Shown piece after piece: positions 9,485 to 13,435 of a stretch of DNA of 64,000 bases. The notes under the pieces are model-generated. The model was not told the DNA's origin, made no database searches, and worked only from the letters and a program-made list of their open reading frames with translations. A program made the position numbers and the translations under genes. Source of the DNA: Clostridia bacterium (GTDB lineage Bacteria > Bacillota > Clostridia > UBA1381 > UBA9506). The DNA is taken from assembly GCA_017416855.1 (NCBI GenBank), contig JAFQAZ010000025.1, positions 62,001 through 126,000 of the forward strand. The letters are read 5' to 3'. How positions within the stretch are numbered: the stretch's first letter is position 1; the number at the start of each line of letters is the position of its first letter.

Positions 9485-9513
9485 TTGACATTTATATTCT
9501 ACAATGGTAGAAT
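9485..9513 (+). promoter_or_regulatory. Promoter of the BlaI-M56/LCP-SLH operon
   Basis: TTGACA (9485-9490) and TAGAAT (9508-9513) are separated by 17 bases. The -10 box lies inside the first predicted BlaI operator. Confidence 0.75.
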
Positions 9514-9533
9514 ATAATAAACTACACGTGTAG
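9496..9533 (+). promoter_or_regulatory. Two BlaI-type operators
   Basis: Operator 1 is ATTCTAC-AATG-GTAGAAT (9496-9513), a perfect dyad overlapping the -10 box. Operator 2 is CTACACGTGTAG (9522-9533), a perfect 12-bp palindrome just downstream. Both resemble the TACA/TGTA dyads bound by BlaI/MecI. Binding by the BlaI encoded immediately downstream is an inference. Confidence 0.72.
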
Positions 9534-9553: not shown

Positions 9554-9925
9554 ATGAAGCATATTAGTATTGGTGAGGCAGAACTGGAAATTATGAAGGT
9601 GATATGGAAGGCAAAAGAGCCGATAACATCATTGGAAATAGGTAGAGCAGTGGAAAACAAGGGATGGAAGAAAACAACCATTGCTACATTTCTTGCAAGA
9701 CTTGTTGAAAAGGGTGCTCTTTCTGCCCAAAAGCAGGGCAAACTTTATTATTACTCTCCGATGATTACAGAAGGAGAATACAAAAAATCTCAGACAAGGA
9801 ACCTAATTAAAACTTTGTATAATGGTTCTTTGAAGGACTTTGCCGTTGCCTTGTTTGAAGAAGAAAGTCTATCGGATCAGGATATAAAGGAGCTCAGAGC
9901 CATTTTTGATGATATGGAGGGCTGA
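9554..9925 (+). CDS. blaI: BlaI/MecI-family transcriptional repressor
   Basis: A 123-residue winged-helix repressor. The DNA-binding half matches BlaI/MecI (ISIGEAELEIMKVIWKAKEPITSLEIG, then KGWKKTTIATFLARLVEKGAL, then YYSPMITEGEY). The C-terminal helical part (about 80-123) is the dimerisation region, where the cognate protease cuts in characterised systems. The stop codon overlaps the first possible ATG of the next gene, so the repressor and its sensor protease are translationally coupled. The two dyads in its own promoter suggest autoregulation. No beta-lactamase gene is in the window, so it probably regulates its own operon rather than beta-lactam resistance. Confidence 0.92.
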   Translation: MKHISIGEAELEIMKVIWKAKEPITSLEIGRAVENKGWKKTTIATFLARLVEKGALSAQKQGKLYYYSPMITEGEYKKSQTRNLIKTLYNGSLKDFAVALFEEESLSDQDIKELRAIFDDMEG

Positions 9926-9927
9926 TG

Positions 9928-12744
9928 ATGACGGAGATTTTTAAAATGTTGTTCTTAATGTCGTGCGCAGGTACAGCTCTGGCGGCTATTCTTGCGGCAG
10001 TCAGACCCATCACAAAGAAACTGTTTTCCAGTAGTTGGCACTATTATATGTGGCTGGTGGTTTTGTGCGTTATGGTGTTACCAATCAGACTACATTTGCC
10101 GGCAACACCGGTAATGCAGTCTGTGCAAAGAGAATCTTATACCGCTTCAAATGAAGAGATGCTCGTTGAAACCTTAGAAGTAGCAGAAAAAGTGGAATCC
10201 GTTACGATAGAAGACGAGGCAATTTTGACAGAAAACGATGAAGCTTATGCTTTTATAGATTTAAACTGGATGCTCTTTTCTTATGTATGGCTGATGGGAA
10301 TGGTTCTTTCGCTCTTGGGAAAAATGATTAGTTATGGCATTTTCATCAGACAAATACATACACATTCTCAGGTGGTTGACTGTCCGGCGATAGTGCAATA
10401 CACCAAGCGAAAAGTTATTGTGAGAGTCAGCGATGGGATATGTTCTCCGCTGATGCTCGGCGTTTGTAAGCCAGTGCTGGTGTTGCCTAAGACAGAGCTT
10501 TCCGAAAAACAGTTACAATACATAATGGCTCATGAATGCACTCATCTTAATCGGCAGGATATTTTATATAAGTGGTTTCTCAGTATCGTTAAAAGCATTC
10601 ATTGGTTTAATCCGTTTATATACCTGATTACCCAACAAATTCATTTGGATTGTGAAATTGCCTGCGATATGGCGGTTGTGCAGCAGATGAATCAAAATGA
10701 AACGAAAGGGTATGTGGAAACGATACTTTTGCTATTAACGACTCAGAATGCGAAGCAAGTACCATTAACAACAGGCATGACCGGCACGAAAAAAACACTT
10801 AAAAAACGGTTTGCTATGATAAAAAATAAAATGACGGTGAAAACATCAATGACGGTGCTATCTGTGATTCTGGCAGTTGTGCTATTAAGCTGCGGCATTG
10901 TTATCAGCGGTGTTTTGAATGGCAAAACGAAGCCTTCGGCAGAGATGGCAACGGGCATACAAACAGACCAACGACGGGGAAACGAATTTAACTTTTTGAT
11001 GCTTGGCATAGACAACAATGGCAGAGCAGATGCTATTATGGTTTTCAATGTTAAAGAGGATGGACTAACAGGGTTATCCTTTCCCAGAAATGTGAACTTT
11101 ACAAGCGGAGAGGAAAGCGGCAGGATGTCTGACCTTTTAGCTAAAGAGAATGGTGACCAGCTGGTGGTTGATGCTATACGATCCTTTGGTATCCCCATGC
11201 ATTATTATGCCAAGGTTAATATTGAAGCGGTTGAAACGTTGATTGACAATGTGGGTGGTCTGCAATTGAATATACCGGAAGATATGGTATATGATGATCC
11301 ATATCAGAATTTACATATTGATATACCGGCAGGTCTTCAACGGCTATCCGGTGAGCAGGTGGGACAGGTTTTGCGATACCGTCGATACCCAAATGGAGAA
11401 GAAGGGCGGAGCATGACCTGGTATACGGTCATGACGGCCTTTGTGAATCAGATTCAACAGGAGAATAAGACAATTGATGTTGGGCAGCTGTATGAAACGG
11501 TTGCAAAGCATATCACGACCAACTATTCCCTTGAGGACTTGATTAAAGACATACCGTGGCTGTCGAACATTAATCGAAATAATGTTGTTTTTGAAGGAAT
11601 GCCCGGACAGAATATTACTAATGCTGATGGAACTTTTGGGTATCAGATTAATATGGCAGAGGCGAAAAGTTTGCTGCGAATTTTTAATGCGGATACCAGT
11701 AATGAACAATTGATTTCAGTTATTCCTTATGAAAATGATGTGATGGGTTTTTCCATTAAACTGCCGGAACGATGGAAGGGTAAATACGATGTGATGCAGT
11801 ATGATAATCAGGTAGTCTTTTTTCATAAAGGTATCTTTTTAAAATATGGAAAGGGATTTGGCCAATTGTTTTCAATTACTAAACTTACACCACCATTAAA
11901 GGAGGAAACGGCTGAACCCGTAGCTTATTTATATTGGGCTAAAGACTATGCTTTTGCCTGGTCTGTTGCATCGGATGTACAACATCCTGTCTGGGCAGAC
12001 AACGATGAGCAAGATGAAAAACTGGCAGAGGATTTTGAGGATATGCTGCGAGATTTGGAGTTTATCAAAAACAGTTTTTCTGTTTTGGCACCTCAGCCAT
12101 CTGAGAACAATATCGCGAGCGACCAGAAGCTACAGGGAAATGCAGAAGAGGCTACGGCTTATAATAAAACAATCCAAATACAAAAAAGGGTACATCCAAT
12201 ATCGGGCGAGGTGAGATACTTTCCTGTTTCTGTGAAGGTGAGTGCTGAAGAAACAACACCTACAGATGCGATAGAATCGATGCCTACAGCTATGCCAGTC
12301 GCGATTAAATCCAATGAAAAATCAGACATACCTTATGTTGGTTTTGAAAATTTAATTTTAGAAAATGCTGATATAGAAAAGATGCAGGCGTTATTGAAAC
12401 AGAAGGGTTCTGTGCAGGGAGGACAGCATTTTACGAAGCTTAGTGAGAGCTATATTGTTAATGACTATAGTTATGAAAATGATTTACAGCATAAAAATAC
12501 AGGAATTACCTGTGATGCCAACGGAAATATTTCGGTTTATTTTGCGGTCAACAGTGATAATTTAGTGGATATTTCCTTCTTTGATTCAGAAACGAAGGAA
12601 AGCGTTGGTTCTTATCTTGTGCTGGCCAATAATGAAAATGCCTATTCCTTTTTAGGGTTTGACCAGAATAAAACCTATGACATCAATATTCAGGGAAAAA
12701 CACAAGGAACTTGGCAAATTGATGGAGAATATCTCGTTTATTAA
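9928..12744 (+). CDS. BlaR1-like M56 sensor protease fused to an LCP domain
   Basis: A 938-residue membrane protein. Residues 1-340 form a BlaR1/MecR1-type M56 unit: hydrophobic helices near 5-27, 38-52, 115-140 and 307-330, and the zinc-protease motif HECTH at 202-206 within KQLQYIMAHECTHLNRQD. In BlaR1 the extracellular part is a penicillin-binding sensor. Here residues about 350-560 instead look like a LytR-CpsA-Psr domain: FLMLGIDNNGRADAIMVF, then LSFPRNVNF (PRD has become PRN), then KVNIEAVETLIDNVGGL, then LRYRRYPNGEEGRS, with the phosphate-binding Arg residues retained. A further roughly 375 residues have a segment FSIKLPERWKGKYDV of unknown role. Two ATGs (9925, 9928) are possible; the second is better spaced from GGAGGG. 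Confidence 0.82.
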   Translation: MTEIFKMLFLMSCAGTALAAILAAVRPITKKLFSSSWHYYMWLVVLCVMVLPIRLHLPATPVMQSVQRESYTASNEEMLVETLEVAEKVESVTIEDEAILTENDEAYAFIDLNWMLFSYVWLMGMVLSLLGKMISYGIFIRQIHTHSQVVDCPAIVQYTKRKVIVRVSDGICSPLMLGVCKPVLVLPKTELSEKQLQYIMAHECTHLNRQDILYKWFLSIVKSIHWFNPFIYLITQQIHLDCEIACDMAVVQQMNQNETKGYVETILLLLTTQNAKQVPLTTGMTGTKKTLKKRFAMIKNKMTVKTSMTVLSVILAVVLLSCGIVISGVLNGKTKPSAEMATGIQTDQRRGNEFNFLMLGIDNNGRADAIMVFNVKEDGLTGLSFPRNVNFTSGEESGRMSDLLAKENGDQLVVDAIRSFGIPMHYYAKVNIEAVETLIDNVGGLQLNIPEDMVYDDPYQNLHIDIPAGLQRLSGEQVGQVLRYRRYPNGEEGRSMTWYTVMTAFVNQIQQENKTIDVGQLYETVAKHITTNYSLEDLIKDIPWLSNINRNNVVFEGMPGQNITNADGTFGYQINMAEAKSLLRIFNADTSNEQLISVIPYENDVMGFSIKLPERWKGKYDVMQYDNQVVFFHKGIFLKYGKGFGQLFSITKLTPPLKEETAEPVAYLYWAKDYAFAWSVASDVQHPVWADNDEQDEKLAEDFEDMLRDLEFIKNSFSVLAPQPSENNIASDQKLQGNAEEATAYNKTIQIQKRVHPISGEVRYFPVSVKVSAEETTPTDAIESMPTAMPVAIKSNEKSDIPYVGFENLILENADIEKMQALLKQKGSVQGGQHFTKLSESYIVNDYSYENDLQHKNTGITCDANGNISVYFAVNSDNLVDISFFDSETKESVGSYLVLANNENAYSFLGFDQNKTYDINIQGKTQGTWQIDGEYLVY

Positions 12745-12756
12745 GGAGTGAATAGA

Positions 12757-13392
12757 ATGAAAAAAGTAATGGCTTTCTTGTTAATGCTCAATATGCTGTG
12801 GGTGACTACGACAGGAACTTTAGGACTTGAGGATATACAAAAGAAAACACTATACGATTTTGAGATTATGGTTGGCGATGAAACAGGGGAATTGCACTTA
12901 GAGCGTACCATTACAAGGGCAGAAGCAGCAAAAATGATATGTGTGGCAGGAAGTGTTACACCACAAACAGTTTTTACAGAAGAGGACGGCTTTCCGGATG
13001 TAAATGTTGAGCATTGGGCGTTTCCTTATGTTTGTGCATTAAAAGAAGCAGGAATTGTAAATGGTGATGAAAACGGACATTTTAATCCTGAAAATGAAAT
13101 TACCAACGAAGAAATTGTGAAAATGATTGTGGCATTGCTGGGATATAGTGAATTAGCAATAGCAAGAGGGGGCTATCCGGCCGGCTACACAGCCCAAGCC
13201 GGTGTTTTGGGCATTACAAAAGGCATGCAGTTTGCGGTGAATGTGCCAGCTGTGCGCCGTGATGTAGCTATCATGATTTATCAGGCTTTGGATGTGCCTT
13301 TGATGGTGATGGACGAGGAAGGTATTTATGTGATTAACAATGGAAAAAATGGAGTGCCGTTGAGAACATTGAGGATGAATATAGGAAGATAA
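12757..13392 (+). CDS. Secreted SLH-domain protein
   Basis: A 211-residue exported protein. The N-terminus is a signal peptide (KK followed by VMAFLLMLNMLWVTTTG). The rest consists of S-layer homology repeats: TITRAEAAKMICVAG near 55-70, then FPDVNVEHWAFPYVCALKEAGIVNGDENGHFNPENEITNEEIVKMIVALLGY, the canonical SLH pattern, and a weaker third repeat (AVRRDVAIMIYQAL). No other domain is visible, so it is probably a wall-anchored protein of unknown role. It begins 12 bases after the M56/LCP gene with AAGGAG upstream, so it belongs to the BlaI operon. A terminator follows directly. Confidence 0.85.
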   Translation: MKKVMAFLLMLNMLWVTTTGTLGLEDIQKKTLYDFEIMVGDETGELHLERTITRAEAAKMICVAGSVTPQTVFTEEDGFPDVNVEHWAFPYVCALKEAGIVNGDENGHFNPENEITNEEIVKMIVALLGYSELAIARGGYPAGYTAQAGVLGITKGMQFAVNVPAVRRDVAIMIYQALDVPLMVMDEEGIYVINNGKNGVPLRTLRMNIGR

Positions 13393-13396
13393 ATTT

Positions 13397-13435
13397 AAAG
13401 ACTGTAGAAGAATTTTTTTCTACAGTCTTTTTTAA
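13397..13435 (+). terminator. Terminator of the BlaI operon
   Basis: AAAGACTGTAGAA and TTCTACAGTCTTT form a 13-bp perfect stem followed by a T run. Confidence 0.9.

Follow-up and report, generated by a model that had tools for sequence, protein, structure and literature searches.

An M56 metallopeptidase of the BlaR1 type, fused to a LytR-CpsA-Psr (LCP) domain in the position of the penicillin sensor, is encoded within the window, i.e. the stretch of 64,000 nucleotides of Clostridia bacterium (assembly GCA_017416855.1) analyzed here. Together with the adjoining repressor BlaI, the fusion protein probably (at a rough probability of 0.58) constitutes a one-step signalling system of the BlaR1/BlaI type with a degenerate LCP domain as sensor. 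The membrane protease and repressor pair BlaR1/BlaI is known for penicillin sensing, and LCP domains in other bacteria bind lipid-linked cell-wall polymers. The sensing of lipid-linked wall-polymer supply by bacteria is, to our knowledge, poorly known. With an LCP domain in the penicillin sensor's place, the cell may be able to gauge the state of its wall-polymer supply.

Architecture of the fusion protein and its operon

A segment of 4 kb accommodates sensor and repressor genes, both operators, and one apparent target gene. The fusion gene is flanked by the following elements:

9485..9513, plus strand: operon promoter (TTGACA, 17 nt, TAGAAT), matching the consensus at 11 of 12 positions; sister operons show this layout ahead of blaI as well
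9499..9510, plus strand: operator O1, CTACAATGGTAG, palindromic, BlaI-type, within the promoter spacer
9522..9533, plus strand: operator O2, CTACACGTGTAG, palindromic, BlaI-type
9554..9925, plus strand: blaI, BlaI/MecI-type repressor of 123 amino acids (Penicillinase_R, E 1.5e-30, over the cut-off); overlaps the fusion start by one base
12748..13392, plus strand: SLH-domain surface protein of 214 amino acids, third gene of the operon, 3 nt past the fusion gene (Pfam SLH, E 7.8e-15, two stretches)
13397..13430, plus strand: bidirectional terminator-like hairpin closing the operon, found on the minus strand; read on the plus strand, the stem has TTTTTT behind it

The BlaI partner named in the first-pass annotation is thus encoded directly upstream of the fusion, and it is the only BlaI copy of the genome. 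It aligns with MecI over the full length without gaps, in line with a winged-helix repressor whose C-terminal part is predicted to be cleavable. The motif CTACN4GTAG occupies the O1 position in eight of nine fusion operons, with one mismatch in the ninth (L053), and the O2 position in all nine, five of the compared promoters having been read from the duplicate loci L034-L038. Promoter and operators in full combination occur only once in the genome, where other sites carry three mismatches at best, and the operon therefore appears to be its own main target. TCTACN4GTAGA, which is rarer than the reversed control, occurs at one other site in the genome, within a coding gene. Since a search of the genome with the operator and promoter-operator patterns found no second target promoter beyond the operon, the response looks narrow. 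The system thus apparently acts on its own operon, SLH gene included. The genome contains 108 SLH repeats and one match to the polysaccharide pyruvyl transferase family. Scanning the window for Rfam families and tRNAs gave no matches.

The fusion protein is composed of the following parts, to which a C-terminal tail is added:

9925..12744, plus strand: M56-LCP fusion gene, intact reading frame of 939 amino acids
9949..10821, plus strand: M56 metallopeptidase part, residues 9-299 (Pfam E 3.9e-54), HECTH at 203-207 and CE at 243-244
10765..10779, plus strand: predicted autocleavage loop LTTG/M, residues 281-285, aligned to LSHS/F of S. aureus BlaR1
10843..10917, plus strand: fourth transmembrane helix, residues 307-331 in the model (hydropathy maximum 309-327), leading directly into the LCP domain
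10945..11694, plus strand: LCP domain, residues 341-590; LytR_cpsA_psr (PF03816) over the cut-off at 367-511, E 1.8e-18

The reading frame opens with ATG ATG at 9925; the second methionine, at 9928, had earlier been taken as the start. By sequence alignment, the M56 part matches S. aureus BlaR1 (E 3e-15), and the best match of the LCP part among solved LCP proteins has an E of 2e-11. That the outer domain folds as an LCP domain, as had been proposed before, was borne out by structure prediction. In the AlphaFold2 model, which has a mean pLDDT of 58 and values of mostly 62-84 in the LCP region, residues 340-590 and 5-293 were aligned by VIA-align with TagT with LII-WTA (Z 21.6) and with BlaR1 (Z 19.0), respectively. 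A Foldseek search of the PDB with the same model places LCP proteins at ranks 1-33 and BlaR1 next. The zinc-motif residues His203, Glu204, His207, and Glu244 as well as the loop residue Met285 are invariant across nine fusions. Ser283-Phe284 of BlaR1 aligns with Gly284-Met285 of the fusion, the predicted autocleavage site with a bulky hydrophobic P1' residue. With the NCBIfam BlaR1 model, the fusion scores 127.8 bits, below the cut-off of 400. The fusion carries the sole M56 gene of the 2.37 Mb genome, and one other LCP gene is present, which is complete and stands alone.

A Pfam match to a penicillin-binding (class-D beta-lactamase-like) sensor domain is absent from the fusion protein, the LCP domain being found in its place, and no resistance gene is located in the operon. 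Both observations argue against a classic response to beta-lactams or muropeptides in which the LCP domain is a mere structural spacer, and so does the conservation of the LCP binding residues, which are not free to drift. Although the bla-type M56 part, BlaI, and the operators would fit such a response, and a peptidoglycan fragment is reported to contribute to induction in Bacillus licheniformis as well (PMC3305447), this explanation is highly improbable.

Relatives of the fusion and residues of the LCP site

Eight further genomes (L047, L048, L049, L050, L051, L052, L053, and L054) carry the same fusion, which is therefore more than a chance combination; the earlier reading of an LCP ectodomain replacing the penicillin sensor of an M56 protein is supported. 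These relatives are nearly all metagenome assemblies labelled uncultured Clostridia or Oscillospiraceae, several of them from ruminant gut. In all nine cases blaI is found directly upstream of the fusion gene. The arrangement is rare, with one fusion found outside the order among 391 genomes sampled across the class, and viral contigs yielded no relative. In the M56 tree, the fusions fall within one clade of 20 members (support 97/92), in other members of which this slot is occupied by M23 or Cu_amine_oxidN1-like ectodomains, likewise related to the wall. The fusion label requires at least two changes, either gains or losses, on this tree. A single origin is therefore not supported, and the ectodomain is swapped on a stable M56/BlaI core.

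Residues of the LCP site were compared between ten proteins, namely the nine fused LCPs and the closest separately encoded one (L145), and stand-alone LCPs from the same order, using Cps2A numbering and residue roles according to PMC7831098 and PMC6381275. In Cps2A, Arg267 and Arg374 are phosphate-binding and Asp234 and Asp246 are metal-binding residues (PMC7831098). The corresponding residues of the window LCP are Arg388, Arg495, Asp363, and Asp369, respectively, all of which are kept together with Arg484 and Arg486. The phosphate-binding arginines reported in the first-pass annotation are hence in place, and the alteration of PRD to PRN stated there is likewise found at 387-389 (Asn389), PRN being present in 7/9 fused LCP domains.

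Across the ten proteins, Arg267, Arg364, Arg374, Asp234, and Asp246 are kept without exception. Gln378, in contrast, is lost in all ten (Trp, Gly or His; Trp499 in the window) but present in 41/41 stand-alone LCPs of the order. Asp268 is changed in eight (Asn in seven, Glu in one) compared to Asp in 43/43 stand-alone LCPs, and Arg362 is replaced by Gln in six compared to Arg in 41/41, all these counts coming from related sequences and hence not representing independent events. The active site of the fused LCPs is thus drifting in its sequence, binding residues being kept and accessory ones changing, as expected of a sensor. Separately encoded LCPs of L177-L181 keep Gln378 and Arg362, which indicates that the drift is confined to the fused LCPs and the closest relative of theirs (L145) and that catalysis in L177-L181 may still be intact.

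The retained residues also bear on a different explanation, in which an active glycopolymer ligase, the LCP domain, would be tethered to an M56 regulator for the sake of co-regulation or localisation, with sensing left to the extracellular loop, the tail or the like. Such a ligase would be in keeping with the main catalytic arginine (Arg267, TagT Arg118), Arg374, and both metal aspartates, kept in all fusions, and with the LCP-only proteins of split operons, which keep the full residue set. The changes at Gln378, Asp268, and Arg362, none of which is seen in the stand-alone LCPs compared, speak against it. So do the complete stand-alone LCP already present in the genome and the unrelated ectodomains which occupy the same slot in other members of the M56 clade, and a tethered ligase is regarded as quite unlikely.

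Separate-gene versions and the C-terminal tail

In six more genomes (L145, L177, L178, L179, L181, and L182), the LCP domain is encoded by a separate gene with a BlaR1-type N-terminal junction. Five of the six have blaI and M56 genes immediately upstream of this gene; in L182, a like LCP gene is located at the contig start. The gene order in L177, L178, L179, and L181 is blaI, an M56 gene ending before the fourth transmembrane helix, and the LCP gene:

L177:2488-4494: three-gene operon of blaI, M56-only gene, and LCP gene
L178:2759-4815: three-gene operon of the same kind
L179:3327-5388: three-gene operon of the same kind
L181:1868-5179: three-gene operon of the same kind
L145:4987-9792 (G227): split BlaR1-like system, blaI and an M56 gene without fourth transmembrane helix and ectodomain, then junction-bearing genes

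The LCP proteins of L177, L178, L179, L181, and L182 start with LSTSFSRSGKKAKKRF or close variants, which resemble LSHSFNGKKSLLKRRL of S. aureus BlaR1, where this sequence forms the autocleavage loop and the beginning of the helix. Situated at the N-terminus of the LCP proteins from the split operons of L177, L178, L179, and L181 is LSTSF, a BlaR1-like autocleavage-loop motif. Among the 4,106 ORFs of the loci compared, no further match was obtained with the junction-motif pattern, which gauges specificity and is not an independent test since it was built after the motif had been seen. The downstream genes of L145 encode the M56 junction and a transmembrane helix, followed by an LCP, Cu_amine_oxidN1-like or DUF4825 ectodomain; with the junction profile these three score E values of 0.003, 0.016, and 0.11, the best after whole M56 proteins. 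In L145 and in the four three-gene operons, the LCP domain is preceded by a junction and a transmembrane helix of the type seen in the fusion. The split versions represent a natural dissection of BlaR1, protease and sensor being encoded separately and the split falling immediately ahead of the autocleavage loop. L180 (G031) was rejected as a split operon, its LCP gene having no M56 or BlaI neighbours.

Beyond the LCP domain, the fusion of the window extends into a long tail, as noted before, but the length of this tail is about 350 residues (591-939) and not 375. The tail comprises an unnamed domain of about 125 residues, a linker, and a C-terminal beta-rich domain (CT):

11722..12099, plus strand: unnamed domain, residues about 600-725, no Pfam match, phmmer matches
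12184..12216, plus strand: KRVHPISGEVR, residues 754-764, resembling KRVHPITNEVR of the L054 M23 domain
12292..12741, plus strand: CT, residues about 790-939

The unnamed domain is common to the tails of other M56 proteins (L068, L070, L074, and L075). Among the fusions, L049 and L050 have no tail, L054 has an M23 domain, L047, L051, L052, and L053 have CT, L048 has the unnamed domain (cut by the contig end), and the window has both the unnamed domain and CT. The M23 domain of L054 (E 2.6e-26) starts with KRVHPITNEVR, and the similar peptide of the window is possibly the remnant of a lost M23 domain. A fold assignment for CT was dismissed, the model being weak (pLDDT 56) and the best Z of 7.9, to small beta-sandwiches, lying within chance range.

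An SLH gene is found directly downstream in 8/8 M56 proteins with CT (window, L040, L047, L051, L052, L053, L090, and L183) compared to 2/47 of those lacking CT (Fisher p 4e-8, with no correction for kinship). L040 and L183 among the eight sit on a distant M56 branch. A further M56 protein (L079:3118-5013) contains SLH repeats within its own ectodomain. The constant company of CT and a downstream SLH gene, together with the SLH ectodomain of L079, points to SLH proteins as the putative output or partner.

The same two observations, and the M23 peptidase domain of the sister fusion L054, would also be compatible with binding of attached polymer or SLH protein by the whole ectodomain (LCP, unnamed domain, and CT), which would then report surface occupancy and not the lipid-linked precursor. 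However, the fusions of L049, L050, and L054 are devoid of CT and of a downstream SLH gene, so that the LCP domain is usable without both, and the phosphate-binding site of the LCP domain is kept in all fusions. Sensing of the finished surface is accordingly considered rather unlikely.

Proposed mechanism and comparison with known systems

The anatomy of the protein and its operon gives good support to BlaR1-style signalling through BlaI. In BlaR1, a loop of the protease itself, cut at Ser283-Phe284, restrains the enzyme, autocleavage prefers a bulky hydrophobic P1' residue, and sensor binding has been proposed to favour loop release and cleavage of BlaI at Asn101-Phe102 (PMC9834060). The predicted cleavage position of the window BlaI, Ala99-Leu100, aligns with Asn101-Phe102 of MecI; its P1' residue is Leu100, compared to the near-invariant Phe of known BlaI. 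At both predicted cut sites, Gly284-Met285 in the fusion loop and Ala99-Leu100 in BlaI, a small residue precedes one that is bulky and hydrophobic. A route via predicted BlaI cleavage is supported by the intact zinc ligands, the junction matching the BlaR1 loop, and the operators on the operon.

For the ligand, the direction of the signal, the cleavage of BlaI, and the role of the SLH protein we infer the following sequence of events. BlaI bound to the two operators at the promoter of its own operon would keep the operon off, and the autocleavage loop would restrain the membrane-bound M56 protease. The ectodomain may reasonably be supposed to sense a lipid-linked polymer; the extracellular LCP domain would bind a polyprenyl-(pyro)phosphate-linked wall polymer or the carrier, ligand binding at the LCP arginines replacing beta-lactam acylation as the trigger. 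A change in LCP occupancy would shift the fourth transmembrane helix and free the protease, whereupon BlaI would be cut. Once on, the operon would yield more sensor and more SLH protein, which would bind finished wall polymer. The wealth of SLH repeats and the polysaccharide pyruvyl transferase-family match of the genome are in favour of this reading. The narrow response, the swapped ectodomain, Leu at the predicted P1' position of BlaI, and the retention of Gln378 and Arg362 in the split LCPs of L177-L181 speak against it. A competition of the acidic extracellular loop for the arginine pocket was considered and rejected: the LCP fusions average a net charge of -7.4 compared to -3.1 in 32 others, but the values of close relatives without LCP (-2 to -8) overlap with theirs.

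More tentatively, with the odds slightly against it, the fusion may belong to a class of BlaR1-like wall-state sensors with a fixed M56/BlaI core and an exchangeable outer domain, either fused or a separate module with BlaR1 junction and fourth transmembrane helix. The LCP class would then be a decaying glycopolymer transferase turned receptor for polyprenyl-linked wall polymer and controlling SLH surface proteins. If the proposed sensor system is right, the penicillin-sensing machinery would be a single instance within a broader, modular family of wall sensors, and the LCP enzyme fold would be reusable as a receptor.

A description of a BlaR1 plus LCP, M56 plus LytR or BlaR1 plus S-layer homology arrangement was not found in the open-access papers searched. 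A Mycobacterium tuberculosis BlaR1 homologue without sensor domain has been reported (PMC9834060). Like the products of the M56-only genes of the split operons, it is an M56 protease whose chain does not include a penicillin sensor, but no LCP partner is described for it in PMC9834060. Fusions of M56 and M23 share with the present protein an M56 part with a wall-related outer domain, and the LCP fusion L054 also has M23. In contrast, M23 is a peptidoglycan peptidase and these proteins have no LCP domain; a review that mentions them assigns no function to the M56 part (PMC9662197).

The LCP glycopolymer transferases (TagT/U/V, Cps2A, and LcpA) share the fold, a single transmembrane helix directly before the domain, the binding arginines, and the metal aspartates. 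Unlike these enzymes, the LCP domains described here lack Gln378, mostly have PRN instead of PRD and often Gln at Arg362, and are joined to a protease under BlaI control. Similar in overall layout are the BlaR1/BlaI and MecR1/MecI systems of S. aureus, with an M56 protease of four transmembrane helices, an autocleavage loop before the fourth of them, an extracellular C-terminal sensor, an adjoining BlaI-type repressor, and promoter operators. The sensor of BlaR1 and MecR1 is a class-D beta-lactamase-like penicillin-binding domain, whereas here it consists of the LCP domain and tail, and where the bla and mec operons encode a beta-lactamase or PBP2a, the present operon encodes an SLH protein.
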